35,481 bases of DNA from a virus, in IMG/VR virus record IMGVR_UViG_3300017783_000089, positions 1 through 35,481 of that record. The stretch is one strand, 5' to 3'. This document shows positions 2,727 to 35,481 of the stretch, piece after piece (position 1 is the stretch's first letter; each line of letters starts with the position of its first letter). The notes beneath the pieces are model-generated. The model saw only the letters and a list, made by a program, of their open reading frames with translations. It was not told where the DNA came from and did not search any database. A program made the position numbers and the translations under genes.

Positions 2727-5700
2727 TTACTTCTTAGTGATGGTGGAGGTTACAGTAATATTTACCGTTTCAGTTGTTGGAACATTAGAACCAATTGCAA
2801 TATTGAGTCTAACTTCATTAGAACCAGTAACTTCAAATGTCGGAACAATTAGTTGTGTGCCAGTTCTGACATTACCATATTCTGTATGGAATACATTGGT
2901 ATTGTCATCAGTAATTCCAAATTCAATAAACTCTTTTTCGTTAGATGTAGTATTGTGAGCAACAATAACTGTCTTGGCTCCCATGGCAGTTGCCGTAGGA
3001 TAAAGGATAGAGTTTGTATTATTTACAGTTCCTTGTGTTAATGAAACTTTATCAGTCAGAATCTTAATATCATTAAGTTCAAATTCTCGCAGGTCACCAT
3101 CAAAAACTTTAACTTGATTGATGGTTCCAGTTCCAAAACCTGTGTTGAGGTATACATCACCTTGGTTATCGAGTCTCAAGACTGGTTCGACAAAAAGACC
3201 ACTAGAAAGTCCAATATCAAAGTATTGCTTGCTACCATGCAAGAATGTTGTATCTACAGCGGTGTTGTCTAATGTTGTTGCAGCACCATCAAATGTCATT
3301 AGAGATGCTGTAATCTCAAATTCATCAGAAGTAGATGAAACAATTGTATCTACAGTATCAAACTGCAATTCTGTAGTAGTCAGTCTTAATGTATTATTAC
3401 CATCGTTATAGAAATACAAGACATTTTCATTTGCTCCAGGTGAAGTTTCTGGAATAATATAAGTATTTTGGTCAACGTCTTTTACTCCACCAAGAGAACC
3501 CCAGTTTGATCCATCGTATCCTTCAAACTGTGTTGCTGAAGTATTGAATCGAATACTGCCTTGTGCTTGAACTCCTCTTTCACCATCGGTGCCAACTGGA
3601 ATTACAATTGAAGACGCAGCATCAATAGTTAACTTTTTACCAGCATTTGGTCTGATGACCAAATCACTAACGTCAGTGCTAATGGTATTGTCTGCCAAAC
3701 GCAGTTCTGAATTAATAACAACTGGACATGCAGCATCAGGTCCGATTCTAACTTCTTCAATCTCTTCAAATGTTAAAGGTGCAACTGCTAACTGAGACCA
3801 TGTAAGAATTGCAGTACCATTTAGTTGATTACCTGTGGTGTGGATAGGTTCGTTACCACTAGTTCCAGTTGTACCAGCAACCGTAACTTCGTATAAGTTA
3901 TTCAACCACTTGACATATTGACCAATTGTTACTGGAGTATTTGCTGTCCAAGTTTGATATGCAGGTGCATTGACTGCTGGAGATTGAATCTTTTTATTAG
4001 TTACAAACTCTAACTTGGTTGGACCAAACTTAACAGTATTGATAGCATCGTTATAGAACCAAAGGGTATTATCATTAGAACCAATTGTTTGTTCTGCAAT
4101 GATATAAGTATTGCCATCTAGGTCTCTAACACCACCAAGAGAAGACCATGCTTGAGATGTAGCACTGTATCCTTCATATTGGTTTGTTTGTGTATTGAAT
4201 CTGATAGATCCATTACCAACTGCTGCTGCGCCAGGTCTTTCTGATGTATCGCCAGCAGGAATGTTAATTGCTGTAGTTCCTTCTACTTTGACAACTCTAC
4301 CAGTAGCTGGTTCTAAAACTAGGTCGGAAGTTACAGAGCGAACCTCATTGTTTTCTAAAACAAGTTCACTATTAATATTAATTGTATTAGTAGTTACAAA
4401 AGTACCACCGATCGTTAGGTTACCAGTAGATTCCGCAACAGTAAATGCACTACCAACCGCAAGATCAGCAGACACGTTAACATTACTTGTGTTTAATGTA
4501 ATCGTATTGGTGGTGATATTAGTTAAGTTTGTTACCTCAATGTCTCCTCCATCGATCCTTGGAGCAGTTAGAGTTCCCGATATATTAGCAGCACTTGATG
4601 ACAATTGCTGAGAAACTACTTCCACCAAGGTAATAGTTCCAGTATCGACATCTTGTCTAATTGTATCAGATACTTGAGTTTGAGTTACAGTAACTTCAAA
4701 TCCACTACCAAATACTTTGGGGTTATTTGGATCTGATGTTATAGTTGCTTCGCTACCGATGTCACCACCAGACTCAGCATTTTCTGGATCATTAATTGAG
4801 TTGTAGTAATATAGTGTAGTTGGAGTATTTGCAGTAACTGTAATCTCAACATCATTTTGATTACGAATTACACCATCAGTATACTCATTACCAGCGAATG
4901 TCAGAGTTACTAGACCAGAAACTAGTGGGGCATCTGATAGAGTAATTGTTGTTGCATTATCAACAGATTCAACAGTTGTATTGATTGCCAATTCTCCAGC
5001 ACCAGTTCCAGTCTCTGTTACTGTCATTCCAGCAACGATACCAGCTGATGAGGTTACAGTAATTTGTGTAGAAGTAGAATCAAGGGTCGTACTAACACTC
5101 TCTACTAAACTTGGTGCTTTAGATCCACCTGGCAGTGCAGAGAAAGCAAATGTATGTACATTGTTTGATGCATCAGATGTATCAATCTGATACTTATTAC
5201 CAACATAGAAAGTTAGATCTGGATGCATTTGTGGTCCAGAACCAATATCAAGGAAGAACTTATTTCTAGTTGTTCCTGCTGTATTGATGGTATATTCAGT
5301 TGTTCCATAAGAAGCAGTGGTAGCACCAACAATAATGCTTTCCGCATCAGCGAACCCAGCAGCATATGTAATAATGTTGGCGATGTTTCCACCAGCAGTA
5401 TTGACTACATAAACTTCTGCATCTGTGCTTAGAGAAGCACCATTAATAGTAACGGTAACATCATCTGCTGGACTTGCACCACCAACTAGGTTTCCGCCAA
5501 TCGTACAAGTGTCTGTGTCTGCATAGAACAAACCACCAGTAAATATAACTGTGCTAACGTCACCAGCACTGTCTCTAGAAATATCAATGGTACCACCCTG
5601 TCCATTTCCAGATGTTGTGAATACTGTAATTCCAGAATATACGGCAGATGCTTCTGCTAGAATAGTTGAACCAGCACCACTTACTGATTGTGGCACACCA

Positions 5701-8082: not shown

Positions 8083-11000
8083 TTAATACGAAGCAACTGC
8101 TCTTAAATCTTGAATCTTAGGAACGTACACTGGATCGTTAGATCTCATGACAATCTTGATTCCAAAAGAGCTGAATTCTGGAAGATTTGCAACACTATAT
8201 TGCAGTTCTTGATAAGAAATTTGCTTCTCTACGATACCAGAAACGGTATTTTCGTTGGTTGGCAATTCATCTGTATCTGGAAAACCTGTTGCATTGAAAT
8301 ATTCCCACTCGATATTATCGAAAGATTCTTGACTAGAAGATTTCTTGTAACGGAATAGAACTTGTATATCATCAATATTCTTGACATTTGCTGTCAATCT
8401 AACATCAATTGTTGTTCCAGGATTGCCAATAGCAATTTCTTTGGTTACATACTTAGCAACAGAAGAACTATTGCTGAAAGAAATTTCTGGTCTGTATTCA
8501 ATACCATCTGTATATGATACGTTAGAGACTTCCCAATATCCAGTTGTTTCACTTTGTTGATCTGGATAAGCAATAATATCTCCTACTCTGAAGATATCTT
8601 GTACACCTTCTCCAGATCTAGCATTACCGCCAGTTGCAGATTCAACAAGAGATTCTGTATATCCTAAAGTTCCAAATGGTTTCTTATCATTCCTTACTGT
8701 AATCGTAAGATTTTGAGCGTCAAAGATCTCGACTTTACCATTAATCTTATTATCAAAGGTAGCACTAAGAGCACTTGGATTTCTAGCTACAATAGTTTCA
8801 GCAACATCTACATTAAACAGTTGTCTGGTTGGATCGGTAGATACAGCAGCACGAGATTGATTCTGAACTTCAGTTAGTGTTGGATCAAATCCAATATTAG
8901 AAAGTGAAGTGTCGCCAAATGTAATGCCTTCATCCTTTTGGAATCCATTTGATGTAGATAGTCTTACCCAAATGGTTGGACTACCATTAATTTCCTCAAC
9001 TCTAGCAATTGTTCCTTTCGCTTTACTTACGGCACCTACAACTGCTTGTGGTACTGTAAGTACAGTTCCAGATGGAATGTTTGTTAGTCCGAAACTATAA
9101 ACTTCTTTAAACTCAAGGACTTGATCTCTTCTTCCATAACGATCTTCCTGTCCAACAGACTTCTCAATTCTATTGCTTGCTAACTTGATAGAAGCAGAAG
9201 ACATGTCAATAGCAGGAGACAGATAAGAAACTGTAGATGCTAGTTTGATACTATACTGTAGTGACTTATCAATGTTATTGGAAGTTTGGTTGATCTTAGA
9301 AGCAAGAACTTTTTGATTAGTGAAGTAGTGAATTTCATTCAAGAAAGTTTTTTCGTCACTAACCTGGGTGTAAGAAGTGTAGTTGTTAGTAGTAGAGTCA
9401 ACTGGGATAATGTTAGTAGTTTGAACAGTTGTCTTTACACTAGTAGCAGTAAATGTTAGATAATTTACTTGTGGATATAGACGCTCATACTTCTTGTTAT
9501 GTGCGACAAGGATAGATGATCCACCACCTTTCAGTGTACTGGCAGCAACAGTTGGACTTGTAATATGGTAATAATCAACACCAGCACTATCTACAGTATA
9601 GAGTCTGGAGTTTAGTTGGGTTGCTGGAATACCACCAGTATCTTCTGAACCCTTGAAGAATACGAAAGACTTTGCGCGATCCTCAAAACCATGATTTTGG
9701 TGATAAACGCGAATAACCTTATTGTTATTTCTGAATAGATCAGATGTAGCACCTGCATTAGATCCACCATCTGTTTCAAATGGATCTCTTCCGAGAGCCT
9801 CATATGTTAGATCTTCATTCTCAATCTTAAGTGTTCCTTCTCTTGCAATATCAAATTCTGCTCTATGAACAGTGAACTTGATATCCTCAAAGAGATCTTC
9901 CGACCAAGTGTCTACGTTTTGGGATCTGAATACAGATCCTAGTAGTGGTTGTGTTGTTACAGGTGTACTTGTAGCAAGTTCAATTTCACCCAGTCTAGAT
10001 GTCCATAGTGCATACTCTGTAGAATCAGTTTCAACAACTAGTGCATACTTAGAATTATTCTGTAGATAAACTGGGTTATCAAAGATAAATCTAGTTGGTG
10101 TTGTCGATTGTGTAAGTCCCTCAGAATCAACTGCTACGCCCATTCTAACTGCTGGTGTGTCAATCGTAACGCTTGCTTCAACTATAGCGCCTGCAGCGCC
10201 ATTACCGATGCCTTTGACAACGATAGATGGTGGAGATGTATACTCAGAACCAAATAGTGTTGGTTCTGCAAAATAAATCTTACCTTCTGAAATACTTACT
10301 CTACCGTTTGCAACACTACCACCAGGCAATTGTGGACTTTCAAAAGAAAGAATAGCAGTTTCGTAATTTCCGCCAGTCTCTTTGACTGTCAAGTCAGTGA
10401 CTTTACCAGCGTCTTTTGCAATGGTCAACGCAACACTAGCATTGTTAGTTGCATTTGATGTAGTCAAAGATCCAACAATTAGATCTTCATTTTGTACGAA
10501 AGTTTTACCATTGTGATTGCTTAGAACAAGTGTATAGACTTGCTCGTTAGTCAACGTAACTTCTCCGTTTACAGTCGCGGTAATTTCATTATTATTCTTG
10601 TCCAGAACTCTTGTTAGAGGACCACTGCAATTTGATCTAGAACCAGTAATGATTTCATTGATATTGATAGTAGCGGTACCGTTAGCAAATACACGGATTT
10701 TTGTGTTAGGAGTCAAAGAACGTTCTGTTCCAGGAAGAATATACTTGCCAGGTTTGTCGCTCTCTGTGTTGGTTAGATATACTCTGATAGGAATATTGGT
10801 AGACTTCTTATTAAAGTAGAGGTCAACACCAGTAGCAAAACAACCACCATCGAAATTCTCAATTTTAAATGTCTGTGCTAGTGGATTTGGTTTTGATTCA
10901 ACATCAGTTACACTATCTATTAACTGCACACCTTCATTTGCTTTGAAGATAGCAGGTAATGTGGAGTTGATAGTAGAAGGATTTTCAGGCAATCTACCGA

Positions 11001-14000
11001 GAGCATAATACTTAATTTCAGCATAAGAATCTACAGTATCCTTAGCAGCATTAGTTTCACTAGATGTAAACCTAATAGTCTTAATACCAGTGGTAACTCT
11101 AACCTGCTCGGATGTCAAATCATAGTTGATGGTGTTAACATCGCCAGTATAAGTAGCGTTCTCAAGCGGAGCATATCCACCAGGAATTAGAATCAAACCA
11201 CTTGCATTACCATTTTCATCAGTAATAATATTACCATTGAAACCAGATAATGAATTACCTGCAAGACCAGTAAATCTAGTATCTGGATTTACCCATCTTG
11301 TAACATCTCTCCCTTCTAGGAAAGGATACAATTTAGTAGATGGCTTAAGTCTCTTAATTACATACTTAACAGCAATACTCCTTGCGAAGAATTTGAGAGA
11401 AGTTGCAATTGATCCCTTTTCATTGCTATCTGCAGATAAACCTTTTCCTAACTCATTGTTTTGTGGACTTACATTAGAAGAACTTGCGACAGAAGCAGAT
11501 TCAACCTTGGAGAATGCATTGTCGGAATTGGTAGATCCAAATGACGTGATTTCACCAAAGCTGTTCTTCGATCCAATCCAGTTAACAATAAAAGAATTGA
11601 AGATACTGGAATATGCTTCAGTAATATCACTCTTTGCAATGAAGATAGAATATAGTTGTGTGTTATTATCAACAACTAATGGTTCTACACTATCGTCATA
11701 CCAGGAATCAATGCTTGGTTCTAAGGTACCTTCTCCAACATACTGGAGTGCTACAAATGGATTTGGGTTAATCGTCTTTGTAGCAAAATCGTTACCTAGT
11801 AGAGGTAAGGTTGTATAAGGTAGAGTTACAATACTACCAGTTTTTTGGTAACCATCAAGAACACGTTGATCATTTCTTGTATTCGACTCTACAAGAGCAT
11901 AAGCATCCTCATGTGTTTGAGATCTCAGTACAGACTGTTGTGTATCAATAGCACACTTATAATCGCTAGAAGATACTTCACCTCTTAGGTGAGTTTCAAA
12001 GTTATCGACGATGAATCCAGTTTTAAATCTGTTGAATCCAATTTCATCACGAATTTGCATTCCCAGTGCCTGTTGCTCAAGGATGCTAAGAGTAGTGTAG
12101 TATTCAAGTCTTTCAACACGCTTCTCCAACTTAGCAATATCCTTCATCGTATATCTACGATTATCAACAGGAGTAATTCTTACATCCTTACTGCTCGTAG
12201 TGAATGCTGGAATATAGAGATAGTATAGAGCAATTGCATCATCCAGAGGTTCTGGACGAGTTGGGTTCTGTGAGGAGTTACCTTCTTTCAGAACAAATTG
12301 ACCTTTCTTATTAAGGAAGATACCATCAATTCTGCTCAGGAATTCTGTTTGACTAAAACTAAATGTATACTCTAAATTCTTATCGGGAGCAGGTGTTACA
12401 GAAACTACACCACCCTCTCCAATAAAGCTGGTAGCAATACCTTGCCTGGAAGAAGTGTTTGAATATCCAGTAATATAAGAAGAGTTATCAACTTTGGGTC
12501 TGAAGTCAAGGACGTTCTTAAGTGAAACGATACCATGAACAGCAGAGTTAAATGATGGGATTTGTTCTAGGGTCACACCAGATTCGTGGTTGTAACTATC
12601 TACTGTACAGAAGTCACCAGCAGAGTGCTCGAAGTAATCAAATGCTACAACAAGTTGTCCTGTAGGTGCAGGGTATCCTGGTTTTAGGACAATTCTGGAA
12701 ACATCATAGAATGTATCTCTCTGTCCATCATCGAAAGTAAATCTTTCAGTGATATCCTGACCATTACCAACTAGATTGCCAGCAGTATCAACTTCTGGTG
12801 CAGCAACAGATGTTCCTTCATAAACATATCTCAATTTGTATGCATCTGCATAAGTTGTGAGTGTAGTGGACTCATTATCAAAGTCTTCTCCACGGAAAGG
12901 AATAACTCTGTCACCAACAGACTTGATAAGAATTCTCTTATTAGGAACGTTAGTTTTAATTCTAGGACGTGCTTTGGAAAGTTCTAGAGTAGCAGTTAAT
13001 TTTAGTTTGGGGAAAACGCTTGTCGCGTTGAATACTGTAGTTGGCAAACTAATTTCTACAGAACCAGCATTCAATCCACTTGCCTGATCAGTTTGATTTG
13101 ATGTAGATACATTGTTGGAAGTGACGTATACGATATCACCTTTCTTGACAGTAGTAGCATCACCAGGATCAAGAACAGTCATTACAAAATTAGACTCATT
13201 GAAACTTACAAATCTTTGAGTACCAAATGGTAGTTGTGCTGTAAATGTAATTGTATTTGAGTTACTAGTAGAAGTAGTTACAAAATCTCTTCTGTAGTAG
13301 TATTGAATCTTGGAATCTTCAGATCCTCTAGAAACTGATGCAACCTGACCACTTCCAGTTGGATAAATTAGTGTTCCAGATCCAAAGTTATCAATCTTTG
13401 GTGAAATTTTTACAATACTATCATTAGTTACATCTGCTGGAATTGAAGTGTTCAGATAAATTCTGGACTTAATAGTTCCTTCTGGTTTAGTTGCATATTG
13501 AACAGATGCTCTTACAGACTTACCATCGGTTCCAGTAAACTGGATGTAATCACCTTGCTTTAGAAGTTGTGTAGCATCTCCACCAAAACCATTACACTCT
13601 AGAAATCTAAATCCTTGCTTACCAGAGAAAGTAAATTCAGTAACAGATGTGAGGTTTACGTATTCTGTTTTGTTGCTTTCGATATCAGCAGTAAACTTGT
13701 TAGCACCAAGGCTACCAAATGCAGAACCAAAAGATTTAACATCTGCTGGACTATAAGTAGTAACTGTATTTCTGAACAATACTGCATCAACTCTTGCAGC
13801 AAGAGCAATGTTTGCAGCACCAGAATCAATAGTTATTGTGGGTGGTTGCGAATATTTTTGCGCGAAAGATTTTCTTTCTCTAATAACAACAGAAATAACA
13901 AAACCACTAGCATCAAGACTAAGAGTTACTTTAGAACTATCAACTTTTTGACCATTGACCAGCACTGCTGCATCAGTTGAATATCCACTAGTAGATCTAT

Positions 14001-14118
14001 ACTTGACAACAAAATGAGAAATTGTGTTGTCAGTTGCAATTTTAGCACTGTTGTTGTTTTCATCAATTAGGACTTCCCCAGACTTAAACGTTCCAGAGAG
14101 AGTACGGACCATCAACAT
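8083..14118 (-). CDS. Giant virion structural protein, downstream part of a DUF4815-type reading frame split by an in-frame TAA
   Basis: From the first ATG (14118) this reads 2,011 residues. The same frame is open for another 82 codons upstream, back to the TAA at 14365-14367, and those codons look like real protein (SGEYIIGVTSGAYGVVEG leading into SGTFKSGEVLID across the ATG). None of them is ATG, GTG or TTG, and there is no ribosome site before 14118. The simplest reading is therefore the C-terminal part of the 726-residue gene. Residues about 645-690 hold a helical stretch (YTMKDIAKLEKRVERLEYY), and much of the rest is beta-rich with G-x-x-Y modules (KETGGNYE, FGSEYTSPP). It occupies the T4 gp9/gp10 position after gp8, so a baseplate-periphery or fibre-attachment role is inferred. 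The chain ends with TAA at 8083. Confidence 0.8.
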   Translation of the reverse strand: MLMVRTLSGTFKSGEVLIDENNNSAKIATDNTISHFVVKYRSTSGYSTDAAVLVNGQKVDSSKVTLSLDASGFVISVVIRERKSFAQKYSQPPTITIDSGAANIALAARVDAVLFRNTVTTYSPADVKSFGSAFGSLGANKFTADIESNKTEYVNLTSVTEFTFSGKQGFRFLECNGFGGDATQLLKQGDYIQFTGTDGKSVRASVQYATKPEGTIKSRIYLNTSIPADVTNDSIVKISPKIDNFGSGTLIYPTGSGQVASVSRGSEDSKIQYYYRRDFVTTSTSNSNTITFTAQLPFGTQRFVSFNESNFVMTVLDPGDATTVKKGDIVYVTSNNVSTSNQTDQASGLNAGSVEISLPTTVFNATSVFPKLKLTATLELSKARPRIKTNVPNKRILIKSVGDRVIPFRGEDFDNESTTLTTYADAYKLRYVYEGTSVAAPEVDTAGNLVGNGQDITERFTFDDGQRDTFYDVSRIVLKPGYPAPTGQLVVAFDYFEHSAGDFCTVDSYNHESGVTLEQIPSFNSAVHGIVSLKNVLDFRPKVDNSSYITGYSNTSSRQGIATSFIGEGGVVSVTPAPDKNLEYTFSFSQTEFLSRIDGIFLNKKGQFVLKEGNSSQNPTRPEPLDDAIALYYLYIPAFTTSSKDVRITPVDNRRYTMKDIAKLEKRVERLEYYTTLSILEQQALGMQIRDEIGFNRFKTGFIVDNFETHLRGEVSSSDYKCAIDTQQSVLRSQTHEDAYALVESNTRNDQRVLDGYQKTGSIVTLPYTTLPLLGNDFATKTINPNPFVALQYVGEGTLEPSIDSWYDDSVEPLVVDNNTQLYSIFIAKSDITEAYSSIFNSFIVNWIGSKNSFGEITSFGSTNSDNAFSKVESASVASSSNVSPQNNELGKGLSADSNEKGSIATSLKFFARSIAVKYVIKRLKPSTKLYPFLEGRDVTRWVNPDTRFTGLAGNSLSGFNGNIITDENGNASGLILIPGGYAPLENATYTGDVNTINYDLTSEQVRVTTGIKTIRFTSSETNAAKDTVDSYAEIKYYALGRLPENPSTINSTLPAIFKANEGVQLIDSVTDVESKPNPLAQTFKIENFDGGCFATGVDLYFNKKSTNIPIRVYLTNTESDKPGKYILPGTERSLTPNTKIRVFANGTATININEIITGSRSNCSGPLTRVLDKNNNEITATVNGEVTLTNEQVYTLVLSNHNGKTFVQNEDLIVGSLTTSNATNNASVALTIAKDAGKVTDLTVKETGGNYETAILSFESPQLPGGSVANGRVSISEGKIYFAEPTLFGSEYTSPPSIVVKGIGNGAAGAIVEASVTIDTPAVRMGVAVDSEGLTQSTTPTRFIFDNPVYLQNNSKYALVVETDSTEYALWTSRLGEIELATSTPVTTQPLLGSVFRSQNVDTWSEDLFEDIKFTVHRAEFDIAREGTLKIENEDLTYEALGRDPFETDGGSNAGATSDLFRNNNKVIRVYHQNHGFEDRAKSFVFFKGSEDTGGIPATQLNSRLYTVDSAGVDYYHITSPTVAASTLKGGGSSILVAHNKKYERLYPQVNYLTFTATSVKTTVQTTNIIPVDSTTNNYTSYTQVSDEKTFLNEIHYFTNQKVLASKINQTSNNIDKSLQYSIKLASTVSYLSPAIDMSSASIKLASNRIEKSVGQEDRYGRRDQVLEFKEVYSFGLTNIPSGTVLTVPQAVVGAVSKAKGTIARVEEINGSPTIWVRLSTSNGFQKDEGITFGDTSLSNIGFDPTLTEVQNQSRAAVSTDPTRQLFNVDVAETIVARNPSALSATFDNKINGKVEIFDAQNLTITVRNDKKPFGTLGYTESLVESATGGNARSGEGVQDIFRVGDIIAYPDQQSETTGYWEVSNVSYTDGIEYRPEISFSNSSSVAKYVTKEIAIGNPGTTIDVRLTANVKNIDDIQVLFRYKKSSSQESFDNIEWEYFNATGFPDTDELPTNENTVSGIVEKQISYQELQYSVANLPEFSSFGIKIVMRSNDPVYVPKIQDLRAVASY

Positions 14119-14364
14119 GGAAGAGCTACTGAAAGAAGAATCTGTACTTCCTTCAACTACACCATATGCACCGCTGGTAACACCAATAATATATTCACCA
14201 GAAGTGAAACCACTAGATGGTGTTTCTTCTAGTAGTAATTTTGTGAAGAACGTAGGACCAAAGTATCCTAGTCCAAAAATAGAATTATAAACTTTTTCGC
14301 CACTAACAAGAGTTCCTTTGGAGAGGACAATATCGGTATCGCCATTAAATCCAAATCCTCTTTC

Positions 14365-16545
14365 TTATAGATTAAAGTTGCTGGATTTAGTAGTTCCAAC
14401 TAGAGGAGTCATTACATCACTGTAATCAGTAATGTATCCAAGTCTAGCAACATTATCGATAGTTGCTACTGTGATGGTAACGTCATCTGTAGTATCAACA
14501 CCACCAATGGTGCTACCAAGAATTGTAATAGTTTCGGTTGGTGTATAGTTAGTTCCACCACCACTAATAGTAATGTTAGAAATCACACCACTACTGTTAC
14601 GAGCAATAGTGAATGTTGCACTGAGACCATTACTAGAAGAATTACCAGTAACACCAGTGTAAGTGGCGTTTGCTTCTCCAGCAAGAGTAGTACCAGGAGT
14701 ATTTGTAATTGTAGCAATCGGACCTAATCCAGCACCAGTTGTAGTGTTTAGATAGAAATATCTTCTACTTCCATCGTCTTCTACATCAAATTCTACGAGA
14801 GAATCTAATTGTGCTTTACTTCCTAATAGTGTGATCTCTGCAAATCTTTTTGATATATCGCCAGGGCTTACATCAGGTCTGTTTACAATACTGAATCCTA
14901 GAACTTTGAATGTGCTGTAAGACTCTGGAAGACCAGATGCTCTGGTCGCAACAGTATACAACTGATTACTACTATCACAGATATCCGTGAATGAAATAGT
15001 AGGAGAAGCATTGTTTGCTGGATTTAGTTTTTGAACAGTGCCAGACTGTGTAACTTCTACAGTAAAAGTTTTTACACCATCGTTATCACTGTAGATAGTT
15101 CCTCTACGGTTTACGGTGCTTACTCTTTCGTTGAGATCTTTTACAAATCTTGTTCCTGCAGAGAAATCAACCTGTTGACCGATTGTTCCATCATTATACA
15201 GAGAGAACATCTCAACGTCTGGATATGCAGTAAGATCAGAACCCTCTGCATTCAAAGGAACAGATCCAGATACGTTAGCAACAGAATAACTAGGGAGACC
15301 TCTAGTCTTGATAAATTGATTATCGCTATCAAGGGTTTCTCTTGCCTTGCTTACTTCGATCTCTTTTGTTTCTTTATTAACAATTTCATAACCTCTAATG
15401 TATGCTTTACCAGCACCAACATTAGAAATCATTTTTCTAGATGCATCTTGCTCATCTAGACCATTATAGTTACCGTCAGCATCAATAGCATAGACACCAT
15501 TATTTCCTTCTTTTTGTGCCCACTCTCTAATATCTACAGAGAAGTTGTCAACAACATAATCACCAGACTCGTCATAAGTTCTTCTGGCGAGTGTTTGCTC
15601 TAGTAGGGAATAGTCTGCTTGTACAACTTTCTTTTGTACAACACCTCTCTTCACTCGAAGGAGCTGAATAAAATTCTTATCTGTTTGAGTATCTAAACTA
15701 TACTTCTTAAGTGTTAAACTAATTTTTAGTCTATGTGCTCCAGGAGCAGAGAAGTTAGAAGACCCAATAGAATTGTCATACAAAGATTCGTCTTCTTCTG
15801 GAGTAACGATGTCTTCAACAACTCTGAATCCAATTTTTGAACTAGGTGCATTAAAATATGGATCGATGACTAGTATTTGCTCTTCATTTCTTACGAAATA
15901 TCCGTTAGCAAAATAGATACCTTCTTCTACCTTAACAGCAGAAGCAAAACCCATTGCTGGACTTACTACAGATGATTCTTCCGCTGTGTCAGGATCAACA
16001 ATAGTGACAGCAGTTGGTAGAACAGAACCATCTGTACCAACAACCATCAATGGTGTGTTGATACCATCAATGACCTCTAGAGTTTCACCTTGGCGGAAAG
16101 TAGATTCATTGTTGGCATTACCACTGGTTACGTAGATTACAAACAGTGTATCTGCATTGGTTTCAGTAGCATTCTGTGTAGAAACTACGTTTCCAATAAC
16201 ACCAGAGGTAAGACCTCGTAATTGTGTACCAACTAACGTTTCAATGTCATACTTCTTATAGACGATATTATCGTCACCATCATTTACAGCAACTTCTGAT
16301 ACTGAAGATAACTTAACGTAGTCTAGTTTATTGTTTAGTCCTACTTCACCTGGGATTACTAGATCACCCTGTTTGAATGCATACTTACCATAACTTTCAA
16401 TCTGATTTTGTAGAATCGATTGAAGTTGTGTTAATTCTCTACTTTGGATCGAGTATCCAGGACGGAATAGAATTTTATAGAAATTCTTATTGTCGTTAAA
16501 ATCCTCGAAATAAGGAGAAACATTTAGGTTAGTCTTCTGTGGCAT
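14365..16545 (-). CDS. DUF4815-family virion structural protein, N-terminal part ending at an in-frame TAA
   Basis: The ORF is 726 residues from ATG 16545. The N-terminus (residues 5-50: NLNVSPYFEDF, FRPGYSIQSRELTQLQSIL) is what I recognise as the DUF4815 family of T4-like phage structural proteins. A further conserved-looking block spans residues 200-330. Near the C-terminus (about 640-700) is a G-x-x-Y beta module (SGGGTNYTPTETI). The TAA is in the same frame as the following 2,093 open codons, so this is probably an interrupted longer protein, not a complete one. It is the first gene after the gp8 terminator and has its own TATAAATA late element 37 nt before the ATG. GGCGGAA precedes the start codon at useful distance. 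Confidence 0.85.
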   Translation of the reverse strand: MPQKTNLNVSPYFEDFNDNKNFYKILFRPGYSIQSRELTQLQSILQNQIESYGKYAFKQGDLVIPGEVGLNNKLDYVKLSSVSEVAVNDGDDNIVYKKYDIETLVGTQLRGLTSGVIGNVVSTQNATETNADTLFVIYVTSGNANNESTFRQGETLEVIDGINTPLMVVGTDGSVLPTAVTIVDPDTAEESSVVSPAMGFASAVKVEEGIYFANGYFVRNEEQILVIDPYFNAPSSKIGFRVVEDIVTPEEDESLYDNSIGSSNFSAPGAHRLKISLTLKKYSLDTQTDKNFIQLLRVKRGVVQKKVVQADYSLLEQTLARRTYDESGDYVVDNFSVDIREWAQKEGNNGVYAIDADGNYNGLDEQDASRKMISNVGAGKAYIRGYEIVNKETKEIEVSKARETLDSDNQFIKTRGLPSYSVANVSGSVPLNAEGSDLTAYPDVEMFSLYNDGTIGQQVDFSAGTRFVKDLNERVSTVNRRGTIYSDNDGVKTFTVEVTQSGTVQKLNPANNASPTISFTDICDSSNQLYTVATRASGLPESYSTFKVLGFSIVNRPDVSPGDISKRFAEITLLGSKAQLDSLVEFDVEDDGSRRYFYLNTTTGAGLGPIATITNTPGTTLAGEANATYTGVTGNSSSNGLSATFTIARNSSGVISNITISGGGTNYTPTETITILGSTIGGVDTTDDVTITVATIDNVARLGYITDYSDVMTPLVGTTKSSNFNL

Positions 16546-18518: not shown

Positions 18519-21500
18519 TTAGGAAATTGAGAACGGTACGATTTCGTCTCCGCTCGCAATAGTAGTAGTTCCTCTCAGTAAGGTACATCCTGTAAAGGAT
18601 GTTGCAGTTGTGCCCGTATATTCTATCACAGATCCGCTCTCGGTAAATAAGTGACCTGATGATGGGAAGTACGTTGTATCCGCAACTGCGATGGTAGATG
18701 GTATTGAACCACTTGATGTGGTTATGGTGACAGGGTTTTGGATAGATGGATTACCAAGATTCCACTTTTGACCACTGAGAGTAAAGTTTGAATTTGCCCT
18801 CTTAACAAAGTCATTGATGGAAACTGCGGCAAAATATCTCTCGAAGTGCTGGATAGACCAGTTAGAAACATTTGCCGTGCCATCATCAAATCCAACTGTT
18901 GTCCAGTTGCCAATATTGGAACCTAAGTTGCCAACAGTATACTCTCCTTGGTATGTATTCAATCCCTCATCTGCGTTAACAAGGTCAATAACAATGGAAT
19001 TTCTCTTAGTGACGGTTTTTGCTATGAGAGTAACAGGTCCATTATTTCTTGTTTCAACAGGGTTAGTGAAGAATACTTCCTCTTGGTAGAAGTCAAGTAG
19101 ACCACTCGGTGGTGTGAATAGTAAGAGCGCAGTAGACTCTCTCCTTACAGAGTAATCAAATACAACATTGATTTGTTGATCAGTACGAACAGTGGTCTCT
19201 TGATATGTAATGACCATTGGGTCAATACCAACAACACCAGTCTCGATGAGTGAATTTCTAACAAACGATACAGTAGAAATAGATTCCGTATCAATCTGTA
19301 CTTGTAGTCTGAGAATACTTAATCTGTCAGTAGTTCCAGGAAGTGTTGTAGATCCACCCTGTACTTGTAACGTTCTTAAAGACTCAACAGATGCTGAGGT
19401 TGAAGAAGATACAGAACTGATACTCTGAATTGTATTGACGCCACCAGGAATAACAGATACAAGATCTTTTAGCTGACGGACAAAAGTTCCTGCAATCCAC
19501 AATTGATCATTTGTTCCTTCCTGTCCTCTTTCGCAGAAGAGGAAACGATCTTCATACTTACGTGGGTAGTAAATAACCTCGTTACCAACCAGAATTTTTC
19601 CGTTAGAGGAGAACTGGGATGTATCTGGAATGTATACAATAGTAGAACCTTGTGGAAGGTCCGTTTGTAAGAAGGCACCAGCAGCATTGTATGTTTTTCT
19701 TTCCAGGAATGTACTATCAATTTCTCTCTGAACAGTCGTAGTGATTGCTCTAGAGGTAGAAATAACAGATGCACTAATGACATTAGGTGCAGCAGTAGCA
19801 GCAACAGATACAATCTGTCTGGTTACATCAGGTTTCACCATTGCAATAGGAGTGATCCTATCTGTAGATCTTTGGCGAACAACAATACCAGGCTGGTCAT
19901 CACCAGTTGGCATATCGTTCAATTGCTCTACAGGCCAGATGTTATCAACAATTTTTCTCTCAATTAGATATGGAGAGATGAGCAAGAACGATGAAATATA
20001 TGCTGCGAGTGGTGGTGGAAGTGTAATAGGTGTAACTTCAGATTGAATTGTAATCGATTGTTTTACAACACTCTGTACACCAATTTTGATAACACTTACT
20101 TCAATATCATTAGAACGAATATGTTTATAGTTCCTTGTTACAACTGCTTTTGGTATATCAGTATAACCACTACCACCATCAATTAACTCAACTGCGATTA
20201 CATTACCATTACTTACAATAACAGCAGCTTTAGCACCACCACCATTACCATTCTTCGGTACAAACTCTACCTGTGGTGGAGTGTAATATTGATATGCGGT
20301 TCCTTCTGCACGGGATCCGTTAGACCTGAATACTTTTCTATTCCAATCTAATCTTTCAATTTTACCCGTTAAATTGCCACTGCCGTCTTTCTCCATGATT
20401 GGAGTAATACTCAGACCTTCACCACGAGTAATGCCATTATAAGGTGATACTGTATATGTACCGTAATGATCAGAAGTAACATCACTATTATTTCTATATT
20501 CTTTAGAATATACGTTAGGTGCTACCTTTTTAATAGTTCTTGGTTTGTCTTCACCGTCGATTTTAATTACATCTCCAGGTGCAACCTTAAAGAATCCTTT
20601 TTTAGTTAGAGCATCATTAGTATTAGCAACATCGTTTTTAAACCAAGTTTGTGATTCTCTAGAAAGAATAGTAATTCCATCTGCATCTACATTATTTGTA
20701 GTTAATGTACAAGTATAAGTTGCAGTATCAATAGTAAATGTTGGACCATTTGGATTCAAGAAAATACCAATTTTGATGTCTAAGGTAGGATCAAATGTAG
20801 TGTTATTGGATCTTAGTTGGAACTTGAAGTCAGTGCCTTGAATATAGTAGTTGACCATTTTGCCAAGAGGATTCTTAGCACCAGATGGCAACTCTTGATA
20901 CAACCAGACATTTGCATAATTAGATGGATAACCTTTATCAGAATTCCACCAATCATTATAACCAAAATAAACTGTGCTAGCACCATTACCGACTGTTAGT
21001 GTCTTATTATAAAGGTAACTGCCAGGTTCGTGGTCATACAGAGTAACTACTTTTTCGTAATCTTTACCATATAGTAGTCTCATATCAACTACATCTTCTT
21101 TCCTTAGGGGATACTTGAATGTAATTGCGGGTCCAGAAATCTCATATGCAGATTCATAATCTTGAAGTACACCATTGACAAGGACGATCAGGAAGTCTCT
21201 ATCCTCAACGTTGTAAACCGTGTCTGTGTCTACAGATTTAATAAGGAATGGACCTTTAGAAGAATAGTCATCTTCAAGAATTAGTGTCTTATCAGTTGTG
21301 TATCTCTTATAGCTACCGATGTTGAAAGCAAAGAATTTCTCAACAGCAGTTGGTTCACCAATAGTTTTAGCAGTGATGTCTTGATCCCAAATTGGTGGAG
21401 AATCAAATACAATTTGGTTGGGATTTTTGGTTCTATCAATATAGTAAGCATCAAATGCAGGTTCAAATGAATTGAACTTATTACGCTGTACAACACCATT

Positions 21501-24500
21501 GAGTACAACAATCAGGTCATCTTCTGGTCCTGGTAATTGAACAGCAGTGTCATCCTCATAATATAGGTCAAAGACTGTAGTTTCTCCGTCGATATAATCA
21601 GGAAGAGATCTAGTTTCTGTAGATCCTGTGATAGTAGAAGTAATATTTGTTGTCAACTCAGAAATAGCAGATACAACAGTTGCACATTCGGAAGATGGTA
21701 ACTGATTATCTGGAAGAATATTTAAGTTTGTAATTGGAGTTGTATTTGTATATGCTCCAGTCTTGTTTGAATTGTAGTAAGTTTTGCCGAGAACTGTTGG
21801 ACCACTATTAAAGATAGTATCAATGATGTCATAATACGTATTCAACGCTGCAGCAACACCAGCACATGCAGGAGAGTTAGCATCAGCAATAACTTCGCCG
21901 TTGATAACAGGTGCGATAGTTGTATAGATGCTAGTTCCAGGCAATGTTTGTCTCATTGCCAGAACACAAAGTTCATTCAATACTTTATCATAAGTTGCTA
22001 GTGTTTGTGGCAACTGATCATTGATATATGCTAATTTGCTTCCAATGAAGTATAGTTCTGCATATTCAACAATTTTATAGTTACCACCATACCTTAGATG
22101 ATCAACAACACGATCAATCAGAATACCAGTGTCTCTTCTACACTTGGTTTCCTTGGATGACCAGTTAACTAATGGATAAGTTGCCTTTGCCCAATTTACA
22201 GAGTAGTCAATAATATACTCTCTATTCTTGGCAATTAGATCAGAACCATCATAGAATGTTCCGTTATTGGTTCCAGCAAATGTGAATGTTACCTGATTCA
22301 AACCATTGAATACAGGTGCAACTGTCAATGATGTTCCAGGACCAACAGAATACTGATCTCCAGGAGTTACAACACCCGTTGCTGTGGGTAGTGTAGTATC
22401 TACAGTCTGGGTGCCATTTAAGTAAGTGTTGCCAGGAGCAGCAGAACCAGCAGGAGGTGTGCCGCTAGTGATAAGAGCATTAGCAGATACTCTTACTTGA
22501 GTATCGTTGATAATCTCGGTAACCTTAATATTATTAGCAGATGGGAATGCTCCACCAGCACTGATGTGTGCTCCAATAGCAACATTAGAACTGTCTGTAA
22601 CTGTGATAACATCATTACCAGCAGTCCAAGAAGCATTAACTTCAATCCAATCCCAGTTTCTAACTGCTAGTTTTGCTAATCTAACTGCATATTCAATTGC
22701 AGCATTAATGTAAACTTCATATGTATCATACTTAGTGACGAAATCTGCTGCGTAATCCAAGGATTTGACGTTACCACCAAATCTAATATCATGATCAAGA
22801 GCTATCATAGTTAGTCTAATGTCATCCTTAAACTTAGGTTCTAGGATGTTCCATGGAATAGTATTATTACTAATTACAGAAGCATACTGTGACTCAAACC
22901 AACCAATAGTCTCAGCAATAATAAAATCTGTGTTTTTCTCAATTTGATTGGCAGCATCAATCCATGTACCACCTCTCTGATAGATATTTCTTACTTTCTT
23001 AAGTGTAGACTGACTTACACCAGGATCTCTAAAGTAGAATAGTCTGGCTAACAGTTTCTGTTGTGGTACTTTCTGACCCTCTATAATTTGTTCACCTAAA
23101 GGAGGAGCAGCAAATGTGATAGTGCTACCAGAAATAGAATATGCAACTCCAGGTTCTTGAATCACACCATCAAGAGTAACAATTAGAGATTGATTGTTAT
23201 ATGGGACAATAACACTGTTATTATTTTTCTCTCTAAGATTAAATGTTGTAGTTCCAACTAGTTGACCATTAGAATTAAACCTTCCATCAAAAGGAGTATC
23301 TAACTTAACTTCGGCAGATAACAAATCAGCAAAGTTATATTCTTGTACAGAAACCGTACCTGTACCTTCTTTTGCTCTATAGTCTTCAATTCTTTGAACA
23401 GTTTGAGTGACAACTCTACGGGTGTTCTCTACTGTAATTTTATTTTTCTCTGGATCCCAAAGTTGTACAACACTGAAATGTGATGACTTTGGCATTTCCG
23501 TTGGCATCTCTGAAGATGCTACTGGATCAATGATTACCTCACCAAACAGTTTCATGCCTGCTGGATGAGTTGTATTCTTGATCAAGTCTCTCCAAATATT
23601 AATTGGAGTTCTAGATTTAATTACATACGAATAATCCTGATAGAAGAAAGAATCTGTCAGTCTTTGATTACTGTTACCGACTCTACCTCTGTCAGATGTA
23701 TAGTATCCTTGGTTATCATAAGAAGATCTAATGTCTAGAGAAAACTTAGTTACATAGGTCGCAAAAATCTCTCCAGTGTTTCCTGAACGCAGACTTTCTA
23801 CAATGTAGTTTTCTCTAAACTCACCAGTGATGTTAACAATAGAAAGCAGATTAGAACCTTCGCGCCATTCAGCAACAGTTCCTCTTGCAACTTCAATGTT
23901 GTTGATCGTCTGTACTACAATTTCACCTTTATCAAATGCATTATTAGGATAGTTCTTCAGTGCATAGACATATGGTGTAGTATAATCAGAATATAATGTT
24001 TTATCTTTATGGAAAGAAGCACCGTTTCTAATTATAGAAACATTTTTAGGTACACCAATATCTTCACCTTGTGCAAATAGTTTTACATCAGATTCAATAA
24101 CTGCAATTGTTGGTGCAGAAGTATAACCCTTTCCTTTTGTTTTTACTTTAATATCAAATACTTTACCACCTGCACCCATCGTGACAGTAAATGATGCATC
24201 GATGCCTCCTTTGGCATCTGTTACTACTACAACTGGTTTGGAGTAATTTGAACCAAAAGTGTCAACTCTTACACCAGTAATTGTATTGGTGAAAGAGTCA
24301 AACAATACAGTAGCAGATGCCAGGTTGTCTTCTGATGGGAATACACCAGTAATAATTGGTGTCTTTCTGTATGTGTCACCAATATTTGTAATATCAACCT
24401 TACTAATTCCACCAACAGAAAATGCTGACGTTGTTGTATAGGTGATAGATCCACTACCATCATACTGTGGTGTTTTCTCCAAAGAATAGCAAATTCTATT

Positions 24501-27500
24501 TGAAGTAACGTAGTTTACTACCCTTCTACCTACAAGAGGATCATTAATAATTTGAAGGTATGAATCTTCTGATGAAATTATGTTGTTCCTATCAAAGTAG
24601 TAGTAATTAGAGAACTCAGTTGGTCTCTTAACATTATATGTGTTAGTTGCGTCTGTTGAACCAAAACCAAACTTAAGTTCGATTTGTGCTCCAGATGCTC
24701 CAGGAAGAATAGCAGATTCTACTTTTTCTACTGGAACTAGGTTAAAACTTTTACTTGGGCTGAAGTCTAAGTAAGTTCCAGACAAAGAACTATCCGATGT
24801 ATCAAAGACATACTTATAGTATTCTTGAATTTCAATAATTGGATTTGTCTGATAAGTGCCACTCGTTCCTCTCTTAAACTCAAACTTATTAGTTGCAACA
24901 CTAGCATTGACAATATCAGTCAATCTTTGTGGACTACTATTGTCAAAGAACGAATCAAATGATGTAACAGGAGTCAGATTATTGAGAATGGTTGAAGACG
25001 GATAAACAATGAATAGTTTATGTGTTACTGGATCATAGGTAACAGTTTCAGACCCATTGACTTGGAAATTAGCGTCAAAATTATATCTTCCTTTGTAAAG
25101 AACAAATGGTGCGTTATCGTAATGATCTACGGCAGTTGTTCCCTCTTGTGCTCTTTCTACAGTTAGAGTATTGCTAGAGATTGACGATACCTTGACAATC
25201 TCAGTATCAATCGTTGCTAGATCGTTTATAGAAAATCTGGATGCATCATCAATAGTAATTTTAGTTGACTCTCTGGAAACTCCAACGTGGTCAACGTATA
25301 CTTTTAGTCTCTGTGTGCTTTGAGAAGCACCAGATCTACCCAACTCCACATCATCTATAGAAAGTAAATCTTCTCTCTCGTAACCAGTGCCACCATCGGT
25401 AATTTGAATATCAGTTACATATCCATCAGTGCCTACAACAATATTTGCTGTTGCATCAGATCCAGAACCACCAGTTAGTGGAATGTTTGTATAACTGCCT
25501 GCCGTATAATCCCAACCAACATTATATACGAGTAGACGACCAATACCAGTGTAATTTACTTTGGTAGTGATTGTTGGTGGGATTAATTGTAAATCTTGAT
25601 AGATTCTCTTTCTGACATAATATGTTGTTGTCTTGGTTGCATCATCAGGATTGATTGCAACGTTAACAACATCATTTAGACCAATACCATGGTTTTCAGA
25701 AGTTTGAATTAGAGCTACCAACTGGTTTACATCAAACGGTTCTAAACCATCACTTAATGAGACGAAACCTGTAATTTTAGTACCAGAGGTATCACTTAAA
25801 TTATTACTTGCTAGGTAATGCTCTGCAAGGTTTGCTTCTGTCTCAAAGTAGTATGGAGATGTGCCAGTTGCAACGTCATTAGAAGTTGTTGGGTCATTGT
25901 CGTAATCTGCAGATGGCAGAACTTTTACAGTAACAACGTTTGAATCTGCTGTTGTAGCAAGAACTTCACCAAATGCTACTTGTGCTACAGCACCATCAGT
26001 TAATTTTAGAATCGATCCTACTGAATAAGAAGATGCTGTATCTAACTGAAGATTCAGAACTTTAATCGAAGCAGAGAAGGTATTTGTAGTATCAAAGGTT
26101 CCCTGTACATTTCTAAGAACAACAACATTATCATTTCTTACAGTACCTACAATCTCACCAGAAGATCCAGTAGAAGGTTGAGTTAAAGTGTCTCCATCAA
26201 ACAGATATGCTGGATTAACAATTTCTAATCTGGTTGCCTTGATTTCGGTAGATTCTAACCAGTCAACATTTTTACCTTTTAGTTCAGATACAGTTGCTTC
26301 TGCACCAAATCCTTCTGTGCCAGTGTTATTAAAGAATAGTTTAGATCCAACACTGAAAGTGTTTGTTGAGGAAACAATATCAATATTGTCGATACTACCA
26401 CTCTTAACATCATTAACTGTAGCAAGGAAGTTTCCACCATTGCTAGGAGTTCCAGACCTATAAAAACGTCTTACGTTTGTAGGTAGATTTGTTTGTGATA
26501 TGTCTGAGTTGTAATTAGAATCAACAGGCAGAGAATAGAAATTTTCTCCAAGAATATATGGATATTGTGGTTCTTGTTGACTATTGATAGTCAAGAAGTA
26601 TGCATACACTCCTGTTGGAAACTCTGGAGTTACACAATATCTTCCATTGTTCTGATCAAGCAGTCCACTACGATGTCTATACTCATAATCATCAATAAAT
26701 GTTCCTAAAGTATATGTGGAAGTAGATGGTCCCTCAAGACGACTTGTTTTTAGAATATAACTAGAAGTCATCCTAGTGATGCTAGATGCAGCATTTAGTG
26801 GATTCTCATATCCAAATGGTCCATAGATGGGGTTGCCATCATATGCATATCCAATAATAGGAGAGTGTGTTTTGCTTGCTGGTTCTTGGAAAGTAGAACT
26901 AAGGTTGTCATTTAAGGCAACACGAAGAGATTTTGGATTACCTAGATGTCCATAACCGTATTCTAGTTCTTTATTATAATTTTCAAACAGATATCCATAC
27001 TCATCATCTAGTTTTGTCTCTAGTTTGGTATATCTGTTCTTTACCCACTTCTTGATAGTAGCTACACCTGTCGCTCCAGATCCAACAGGAAAAACAATTA
27101 CTTCAATATTATTCTGTGAATAGAACTCACCTTCGTTAATTACTTCATAACCAGTAACTTTACCACCTTCAATTGTAGCAACATATTCAGCAAATCTACC
27201 TCTTCCTACCTTATCTCTAATTAAAATTGTAGGTGGAACAGAATAGTATTCTCCTTGATTGTCAATTAAAAGACTTGTTACTTTGCCTTGAGTTACAACA
27301 GCACGAACAATAGCACCTCTACCCGAGAGAATTTCTACTCTTGGAGTTTTCGAGTATTGACTTGGGTTTCTTAATTCAACAGACTCAACAAATTCTCCAG
27401 ATAGTTTTGCGACTGCTCTTCCAGGTACACCATCTACAAGAACGTTTGGTGGTGCAGTATATTTGGTTCCTTTGACGGTAACATCAATTTTTTCTAGTTT

Positions 27501-29120
27501 ACCAAAATTGACAAAATCTTCATCTTTATAACTGTAGACACGAACACCATTGACTAAGATTCCAACATCAGCATCTGGAGTTTTGTAAATCTCAGTAGTT
27601 CTCGTTGCTTGCTTTCTAACTAACTTGAGAAGTTTTTGATCTTGAATGTTTGTTGGGTATCCACTTGCTCCGTCTAGAATATCATATGAAGGATAACCAG
27701 TAGATGCAATATAATAGTATTGGTCATCTTCAAATATAGCAGATACATCTGCTGTCAATCCAGCAAGAATAGATTGAATTGCTGGTTTTCCAGGAGCTAC
27801 TGGAACTGCACCAGTAGAAAACTTAAATCTTGAATTGTTTTGTGCGTCAACTATCTTGGCATCGGAAGTAATAAATCCAGGAAGACCAACTTGGATTTTT
27901 TCACCAACCGTACTATTTGGTTGTCCATTCTCTACATTTAAGTTGTAGACTAAACCAAATGACAGTAAGGTTACACCAGCGCCACTTAGTCCGACAGGTT
28001 CATATACATCAGATTCTACTGCATATGTTCCCTGAGTCTGTCTACTAGCAATAGTAAACTGTGTAATGTTCTTCTTATCAAAAGTGATAATTTCATTACC
28101 AACCAAGATACTACCAGTCTTCTTCCATCCAAGTGTGGAGAATACTTTAACCGTATCACCAGGACCATCACTAGATAGGATTTGTTCTGTTAACTGGGTC
28201 TTTGACGTGATTGCAAATGTTCCATTGATAGTCTCTTCAGCAAGGAAGATATTGTAGATGTTCTCTCCATCTACAGTGCTATCATATCTTACGTTATCTA
28301 CAGTAGCAGAAGCAAATGCAGTATTGTCAGTCTCTGGTTGTGTAATTACCTTACCAATTAGATCATTGACATCACCACTAAGAACCTTTGCTTTCAAGGC
28401 ATATCCTTGTACCCAATCAGATTCAGAAGACTTATATGTAAAGTCTTTTGGTTCATACTGAGTTGGTGTATTTTCTTCACCACCAGCAACCAGCGTATTG
28501 AACAGGAATCTTACAGAAGCTTCTGTTCCTTTTGCCTTGTAAAACTTACGGATATTCTTGATAAGAGTTCTCTTATCAACTTCACCTTTTAAATACTTTT
28601 CTGGGAAAGCACCAAGATACTGCGCTTCAAAACTCTTGATTAATGCATACAGAAATAGATTACTGATATTCTGTACATCAGATCCACCAGAGTGTGATGC
28701 AGCAACTGTAGAAACATAATTATTAGAACTATACAGGTCACCTAGTTTGGTATTACCACTAACACCTCTACTTACTTCTTGGAAAGTGTTGTTAGTTCTT
28801 GTCTTGTAAAAACAAATTTCATCATCAATTTTAATGTAACCATTTTCTTCTGGGAAGGAAGTGGCATCTGCAACCTGAATAGAAGTAGCAGAATCTGTAA
28901 CGTTAGTTACTAGTGTAGATTTTTGCTTAAGTAAATTCTTTTCATAATAATCGATGTCAGCATAAGTCTGCAAGTTGCTGATAACATCAAGAGGTTGACC
29001 CTGCAACTCTTGCTGCTCATAATACTTGGTTATGAACTTACTAAAAAGTTCATATTCAGAGATGATAAACTCTGGGAGTTGTGACTCGATCAGAGTTGAA
29101 ATTGCCTTTTTTACTGCCAT
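18519..29120 (-). CDS. Giant structural protein (3,533 aa) in the gp7 position, with YHYH-like domain
   Basis: It lies between gp6 and gp8, where T4 has gp7 (1,032 aa), and is over three times as long. Residues 1-210 are helical (LPEFIISEYELFSKFITKYYE, then EKYLKGEVDKRTLIKNIRKF and KAKGTEASVRFLF) and look like a wedge-docking region. Residues 540-690 are four tandem G-x-x-Y beta modules. Residues about 700-850 resemble a YHYH domain (HSPIIGYAYDGNPIYGPFGY; NNGRYCVTPEFP). Residues about 2060-2190 and 2310-2420 are duplicated helical modules (DIRFGGN, HLRYGGN) with a beta insert between. More G-x-x-Y modules occur through the rest. ATG 29120 follows the gp6 TAA by five bases. A gp7-equivalent wedge role is inferred from order; I cannot show homology to T4 gp7. 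Confidence 0.87.
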   Translation of the reverse strand: MAVKKAISTLIESQLPEFIISEYELFSKFITKYYEQQELQGQPLDVISNLQTYADIDYYEKNLLKQKSTLVTNVTDSATSIQVADATSFPEENGYIKIDDEICFYKTRTNNTFQEVSRGVSGNTKLGDLYSSNNYVSTVAASHSGGSDVQNISNLFLYALIKSFEAQYLGAFPEKYLKGEVDKRTLIKNIRKFYKAKGTEASVRFLFNTLVAGGEENTPTQYEPKDFTYKSSESDWVQGYALKAKVLSGDVNDLIGKVITQPETDNTAFASATVDNVRYDSTVDGENIYNIFLAEETINGTFAITSKTQLTEQILSSDGPGDTVKVFSTLGWKKTGSILVGNEIITFDKKNITQFTIASRQTQGTYAVESDVYEPVGLSGAGVTLLSFGLVYNLNVENGQPNSTVGEKIQVGLPGFITSDAKIVDAQNNSRFKFSTGAVPVAPGKPAIQSILAGLTADVSAIFEDDQYYYIASTGYPSYDILDGASGYPTNIQDQKLLKLVRKQATRTTEIYKTPDADVGILVNGVRVYSYKDEDFVNFGKLEKIDVTVKGTKYTAPPNVLVDGVPGRAVAKLSGEFVESVELRNPSQYSKTPRVEILSGRGAIVRAVVTQGKVTSLLIDNQGEYYSVPPTILIRDKVGRGRFAEYVATIEGGKVTGYEVINEGEFYSQNNIEVIVFPVGSGATGVATIKKWVKNRYTKLETKLDDEYGYLFENYNKELEYGYGHLGNPKSLRVALNDNLSSTFQEPASKTHSPIIGYAYDGNPIYGPFGYENPLNAASSITRMTSSYILKTSRLEGPSTSTYTLGTFIDDYEYRHRSGLLDQNNGRYCVTPEFPTGVYAYFLTINSQQEPQYPYILGENFYSLPVDSNYNSDISQTNLPTNVRRFYRSGTPSNGGNFLATVNDVKSGSIDNIDIVSSTNTFSVGSKLFFNNTGTEGFGAEATVSELKGKNVDWLESTEIKATRLEIVNPAYLFDGDTLTQPSTGSSGEIVGTVRNDNVVVLRNVQGTFDTTNTFSASIKVLNLQLDTASSYSVGSILKLTDGAVAQVAFGEVLATTADSNVVTVKVLPSADYDNDPTTSNDVATGTSPYYFETEANLAEHYLASNNLSDTSGTKITGFVSLSDGLEPFDVNQLVALIQTSENHGIGLNDVVNVAINPDDATKTTTYYVRKRIYQDLQLIPPTITTKVNYTGIGRLLVYNVGWDYTAGSYTNIPLTGGSGSDATANIVVGTDGYVTDIQITDGGTGYEREDLLSIDDVELGRSGASQSTQRLKVYVDHVGVSRESTKITIDDASRFSINDLATIDTEIVKVSSISSNTLTVERAQEGTTAVDHYDNAPFVLYKGRYNFDANFQVNGSETVTYDPVTHKLFIVYPSSTILNNLTPVTSFDSFFDNSSPQRLTDIVNASVATNKFEFKRGTSGTYQTNPIIEIQEYYKYVFDTSDSSLSGTYLDFSPSKSFNLVPVEKVESAILPGASGAQIELKFGFGSTDATNTYNVKRPTEFSNYYYFDRNNIISSEDSYLQIINDPLVGRRVVNYVTSNRICYSLEKTPQYDGSGSITYTTTSAFSVGGISKVDITNIGDTYRKTPIITGVFPSEDNLASATVLFDSFTNTITGVRVDTFGSNYSKPVVVVTDAKGGIDASFTVTMGAGGKVFDIKVKTKGKGYTSAPTIAVIESDVKLFAQGEDIGVPKNVSIIRNGASFHKDKTLYSDYTTPYVYALKNYPNNAFDKGEIVVQTINNIEVARGTVAEWREGSNLLSIVNITGEFRENYIVESLRSGNTGEIFATYVTKFSLDIRSSYDNQGYYTSDRGRVGNSNQRLTDSFFYQDYSYVIKSRTPINIWRDLIKNTTHPAGMKLFGEVIIDPVASSEMPTEMPKSSHFSVVQLWDPEKNKITVENTRRVVTQTVQRIEDYRAKEGTGTVSVQEYNFADLLSAEVKLDTPFDGRFNSNGQLVGTTTFNLREKNNNSVIVPYNNQSLIVTLDGVIQEPGVAYSISGSTITFAAPPLGEQIIEGQKVPQQKLLARLFYFRDPGVSQSTLKKVRNIYQRGGTWIDAANQIEKNTDFIIAETIGWFESQYASVISNNTIPWNILEPKFKDDIRLTMIALDHDIRFGGNVKSLDYAADFVTKYDTYEVYINAAIEYAVRLAKLAVRNWDWIEVNASWTAGNDVITVTDSSNVAIGAHISAGGAFPSANNIKVTEIINDTQVRVSANALITSGTPPAGSAAPGNTYLNGTQTVDTTLPTATGVVTPGDQYSVGPGTSLTVAPVFNGLNQVTFTFAGTNNGTFYDGSDLIAKNREYIIDYSVNWAKATYPLVNWSSKETKCRRDTGILIDRVVDHLRYGGNYKIVEYAELYFIGSKLAYINDQLPQTLATYDKVLNELCVLAMRQTLPGTSIYTTIAPVINGEVIADANSPACAGVAAALNTYYDIIDTIFNSGPTVLGKTYYNSNKTGAYTNTTPITNLNILPDNQLPSSECATVVSAISELTTNITSTITGSTETRSLPDYIDGETTVFDLYYEDDTAVQLPGPEDDLIVVLNGVVQRNKFNSFEPAFDAYYIDRTKNPNQIVFDSPPIWDQDITAKTIGEPTAVEKFFAFNIGSYKRYTTDKTLILEDDYSSKGPFLIKSVDTDTVYNVEDRDFLIVLVNGVLQDYESAYEISGPAITFKYPLRKEDVVDMRLLYGKDYEKVVTLYDHEPGSYLYNKTLTVGNGASTVYFGYNDWWNSDKGYPSNYANVWLYQELPSGAKNPLGKMVNYYIQGTDFKFQLRSNNTTFDPTLDIKIGIFLNPNGPTFTIDTATYTCTLTTNNVDADGITILSRESQTWFKNDVANTNDALTKKGFFKVAPGDVIKIDGEDKPRTIKKVAPNVYSKEYRNNSDVTSDHYGTYTVSPYNGITRGEGLSITPIMEKDGSGNLTGKIERLDWNRKVFRSNGSRAEGTAYQYYTPPQVEFVPKNGNGGGAKAAVIVSNGNVIAVELIDGGSGYTDIPKAVVTRNYKHIRSNDIEVSVIKIGVQSVVKQSITIQSEVTPITLPPPLAAYISSFLLISPYLIERKIVDNIWPVEQLNDMPTGDDQPGIVVRQRSTDRITPIAMVKPDVTRQIVSVAATAAPNVISASVISTSRAITTTVQREIDSTFLERKTYNAAGAFLQTDLPQGSTIVYIPDTSQFSSNGKILVGNEVIYYPRKYEDRFLFCERGQEGTNDQLWIAGTFVRQLKDLVSVIPGGVNTIQSISSVSSSTSASVESLRTLQVQGGSTTLPGTTDRLSILRLQVQIDTESISTVSFVRNSLIETGVVGIDPMVITYQETTVRTDQQINVVFDYSVRRESTALLLFTPPSGLLDFYQEEVFFTNPVETRNNGPVTLIAKTVTKRNSIVIDLVNADEGLNTYQGEYTVGNLGSNIGNWTTVGFDDGTANVSNWSIQHFERYFAAVSINDFVKRANSNFTLSGQKWNLGNPSIQNPVTITTSSGSIPSTIAVADTTYFPSSGHLFTESGSVIEYTGTTATSFTGCTLLRGTTTIASGDEIVPFSIS
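26571..26870 (-). other. YHYH-like domain core inside the giant gp7-position protein
   Basis: Residues 751-850 contain HSPIIGYAYDGNPIYGPFGY, then after about 50 residues an aromatic/His stretch (DDYEYRHRSG), LDQNNGRYCVTPEFP and GVYAYFLTI. The DG-PIYGP signature followed by NGR and a V/T-P-x-P strand is how I recognise the YHYH family. The signature YHYH tetrad itself is diverged here (VYAYF). Its biochemical role in phage tails is unknown to me. Confidence 0.6.
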
Positions 29121-31346: not shown

Positions 31347-31516
31347 CACTTGCCACAAAACCCATCTGCCCATTCTGCTTGATTGTTAAAGAGCTCTCCT
31401 TCCTTAACATCTCTAAGCTTCTTTGCTCTCTTCAAGTGTCTCTCACTATCAGTCTCTGTAATGAGAGTCATTCCTGATTCTCTAAACTCTTCACTCTTGT
31501 CTACTCGTTTATCCAT
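31346..31516 (-). CDS. Small hypothetical protein (56 aa), lysine/glutamate rich
   Basis: I take ATG 31516 as the start. AGAGG lies eight bases upstream, and ATGGATAA overlaps the stop of the preceding gene, a typical coupled junction. The frame is open farther upstream, to ATG 31609 and to two ATGs at 31549/31546, but those starts would overlap the previous gene by 40-100 nt and have poorer ribosome sites. The protein is highly charged: DKSEEFRESG, then ERHLKRAKKLRDVKEGEL, probably one long helix, ending AEWADGFCGK. I recognise no family or function. Its position between an unknown gene and gp25 gives no firm clue. Confidence 0.65.
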   Translation of the reverse strand: MDKRVDKSEEFRESGMTLITETDSERHLKRAKKLRDVKEGELFNNQAEWADGFCGK

Positions 31517-35357: not shown

Positions 35358-35481
35358 CTATGCCAGCAGTGCCAGCTCCTGCTCTGTCACACTGCTGATG
35401 TTCTCGTCTTCATAGACCCTCACCCATGGGATGGGTTGCCCTGAGGTGAGACGCCAGATCATCTGGTCTCCCTCTCGCTCC
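35358..35481 (-). CDS. C-terminal fragment of an unidentified protein, cut by the right window edge
   Basis: The last 40 codons of a frame open at base 35481, ending in TAG at 35358. The visible sequence contains GDQMIWRLTSGQPIPWVRVY followed by an acidic end (EDENISSVTEQELALLA). It has a coherent protein character and GC-rich codon use like the adjacent 73-residue gene, 50 bp downstream. An ATG within it (Met-Ile-Trp) could be the start of a very short protein, but the frame is open further upstream. No function can be assigned. Confidence 0.6.
   Translation of the reverse strand, partial: EREGDQMIWRLTSGQPIPWVRVYEDENISSVTEQELALLA

Follow-up and report, generated by a model that had tools for sequence, protein, structure and literature searches.

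The cultured Synechococcus phage S-MbCM7 / ACG-2014h (Kyanoviridae; NC_023587, KF156338) carries a single CDS of 8,463 bases, corresponding to 2,820 codons (S-MbCM7_079, YP_009008213.1). For Synechococcus phage S-H9-1 a continuous orthologue of 2,822 codons is recorded in the same gene order (PQC11_gp070, YP_010669674.1). A homologue by position and sequence is S-PM2p087 of S-PM2, annotated as 'Virulence Associated protein' and belonging to the phrog_358 / PF16075 family. Identity is lower in this family, and the sequences read show no break at the junction considered below. The virion proteome of S-CREM2 has been published (PMC10665884). In this phage two inner wedge proteins are followed by a long 'baseplate wedge protein, intermediate' and then by a shorter intermediate one (PMC10665884).

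The window, i.e. the whole stretch of 35,481 bases analysed here, was co-linear with S-MbCM7. Both sequences share this gene, its neighbours and the frame length; they differ at 18 positions without any indel (99.95% identity). In the window the gene is interrupted by an in-frame TAA (Table 1), whereas S-MbCM7 has no stop but a lysine codon at this site, and its CDS covers both parts. Three of the 18 base differences lie in a patch around the TAA. The lysine codon is also present in S-H9-1, which shows about 75% DNA identity to the window over a 3.6-kb query.

On the minus strand the TAA at 14367-14365 is in frame with the ATG at 16545. Past the TAA the frame is open again for 2,093 codons to 8086 and ends with the native TAA at 8085-8083. 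Hence 726 codons, the TAA, 82 codons and 2,011 codons form a single frame of 2,820. The preliminary description, made from the sequence alone, had regarded these frames as one 2,820-codon gene split by a single stop. This was right, including the frame counts, as S-MbCM7 possesses exactly such a CDS. All of the approximately 6.3 kb of the gene past the TAA is identical to S-MbCM7; thus, this part shows no decay.

Table 1 Location of the gene, its premature stop codon and the clustered differences in the window
Feature	Position	Strand	Basis
Whole 2,820-codon gene, baseplate/tail structural protein (predicted); label in S-MbCM7 'baseplate wedge initiator'	8083..16545	-	annotation and alignment
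First 726 codons, comprising DUF4815 (PF16075) and the initial part of phrog_358	14368..16545	-	frame and profile matches
In-frame TAA, private to the contig; lysine codon in S-MbCM7 and the nearest relatives	14365..14367	-	sequence comparison
Remainder of this gene (2,093 codons) with its native stop; no difference from S-MbCM7	8083..14364	-	frame and alignment
Patch of three substitutions relative to S-MbCM7 (14367, 14372, 14389) within 23 bases	14365..14389	-	alignment
Second cluster (knot) with four mismatches to S-MbCM7 over 12 bases; distance to the contig end 31-42 bases	35439..35450		alignment

The continuity of the gene in homologues was examined by tblastn with a query of 211 residues across the junction against fetched loci. 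Every homologue read had a sense codon at the TAA site, and in all of the closest ones it was a lysine codon. About 70 further sequences covering the junction were read, and none of them had a stop at this site. For scoring, 55 loci with a frame closed at both ends were used (S-MbCM7 counted twice), and one ORF of 2,684-2,829 codons was found in 54 of them. In the annotated phage collection a single named feature lay under the junction in 59 of the 60 matching records; the remaining record is unannotated. Among the compared loci, a frame break at the junction position was seen in the window only. Judged by these sequences, continuity is the normal state of the gene, and the family is not characterized by a stop with a downstream start. 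The preliminary description had allowed for a normal gene boundary, with a stop and a start downstream in the homologues. The comparison decides against such a biological boundary, since a sense codon occurs in all homologues read.

The exception among the 55 loci is the IMG/VR contig L057, whose copy of the gene is broken at another place by an isolated in-frame TAA (5498-5500). At this stop L057 departs by a single base from L059, in which the gene is intact; the two are 99.7% identical.

In the course of evolution, large structural genes of phages do become divided. A true split of this gene would need downstream initiation, either from a non-canonical start or by translational coupling. 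Four ATT codons are available for this within the 82 codons following the TAA, but ATG, GTG and TTG do not occur among these codons (14364-14119). The first ATG downstream of the TAA is located at 14118, and no purine-rich Shine-Dalgarno-like stretch was detected in the 15 bases before it. Thus, the second part has no recognizable start of its own, as already noted in the preliminary description. The SGE motifs run on through the junction as well. None of the relatives is broken at the junction, and the phrog_358 profile carries on through it. Residues 1-488 of the first part were matched to profile positions 1-421 and residues 23-1028 of the second part to positions 441-1239. A genuine split is regarded as highly improbable. 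The DUF4815 domain, earlier assigned to the first frame from the sequence alone, was recovered there by profile search (PF16075, 4.3e-32, above the cut-off).

Programmed or leaky readthrough of the UAA would yield a minor form of 2,820 residues beside the form of 726 residues. The open and perfectly conserved frame beyond the TAA would suit this explanation. However, if the stop is new or false and the gene is intact in the parent population, this conservation is no evidence of translation past the stop. The stop is not conserved but absent from all relatives compared. Recoding of TAA was rejected, because UAA is the usual stop of the genes in the cluster. Folding of 103 bases after the TAA revealed no stimulatory RNA structure beyond shuffles (z -0.08), and tRNA genes, including suppressor tRNA genes, were not found in the window. 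There is very little probability that readthrough accounts for the stop. Even less probable is a real strain with the TAA that relies on UAA readthrough for the complete baseplate protein and also incorporates the short form into its virion.

The TAA occurs in this contig alone, and two further changes cluster with it. Confinement to one record, together with other unexpected changes close by, is a mark of local sequence or assembly error. The three substitutions of the patch are one nonsense, one missense and one synonymous change, and all are transversions. For 14 randomly placed differences, the four at the contig end being left out, the chance of any such triple within 23 bases was estimated at about 0.0004, in a post hoc test with small numbers. 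The seven clustered changes comprise one transition and six transversions, versus eight transitions and three transversions for the eleven scattered changes (Fisher p = 0.05, likewise post hoc and from small numbers). At each of the three patch sites, the closest relatives (L007, L008 and L014) agree with S-MbCM7; of the five scorable scattered sites, four show them in agreement with the window. Hence, the scattered differences resemble genuine variation, unlike those of the patch. The knot near the contig end probably consists of read-end errors. Contig ends are the typical place for read errors, and a position within 43 bases of the end fits this origin. The knot can be taken as this contig's internal control for sequence of low quality.

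Clustering, excess of transversions, the relatives siding with S-MbCM7 and the knot together give the pattern of a local read or consensus error. From this pattern we infer a read or assembly error as the source of the changes in the patch. The gene is most likely an ordinary, continuous 2,820-codon baseplate/tail gene of a T4-like cyanophage, and the TAA a local error of the consensus. The stretch of about 14367-14389 may have been assembled from a poor or single read. Three wrong bases would have entered the sequence there, and one of them would have created the TAA by chance. Against this reading it has to be considered that genuine clustered substitutions occur, by multinucleotide mutation or error-prone repair.

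A very recent true nonsense mutation is rather unlikely. It would imply that the sampled genome was defective or belonged to a minority variant, either short-lived or complemented in mixed infection. One substitution suffices for it, and if it is very young an undecayed remainder of the gene is expected. The isolated private stop of L057 demonstrates that such stops turn up in this gene. But a nonsense mutation alone leaves the two further changes, 5 and 22 bases away, unexplained. Moreover, in nearly all relatives this gene is conserved without a break, so that strong selection against its loss is to be expected. Readthrough, a nonsense mutation, an assembly or sequencing error and a genuine split had all been listed beforehand. 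Among these, the error agrees best with the clustered private transversions and the nonsense mutation ranks second; the other two found no support. The TAA is almost certainly an artefact or a private mutation and no biological feature of the gene.

An origin of the patch by copying from elsewhere in the window or from the S-MbCM7 region was considered. The best other match was 18 of 27 bases, and no donor was identified. Recombination with another sampled phage was rejected as well, as two exact patterns of the window's version gave no match in IMG/VR viral contigs, a search in which the contigs closest to the window could go unseen. A pattern also fitting the S-MbCM7 version did not match any viral contig either. 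Thus, no independent contig of the same strain is visible.

For the biology of this phage group the TAA changes nothing. Caution is called for when a metagenomic virus contig shows a single in-frame stop; a proposal of readthrough or gene fission should be preceded by comparison with close relatives. Among the contigs compared for this gene, isolated private stops are present in two, the window and L057.

Regarding function, the product of the 2,820-codon gene is predicted to be a large structural component of a T4-like baseplate or tail. The annotation, the neighbouring homologues of gp25, gp6 and gp8 and the family matches point to this role. The label 'gp7' or 'baseplate wedge initiator' given to this gene in S-MbCM7 is doubtful. 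Based on gene order, another gene of 3,533 residues (18519-29120), located between gp6 and gp8, would hold the place expected for gp7, which corresponds to that of the long intermediate wedge protein in S-CREM2. Just upstream of the baseplate cluster, at 31509-32809, S-MbCM7 is annotated with a 'ferredoxin' carrying the note PurM and with a 2OG-Fe(II) oxygenase. For the 'ferredoxin' gene, product name and PurM note are in conflict.
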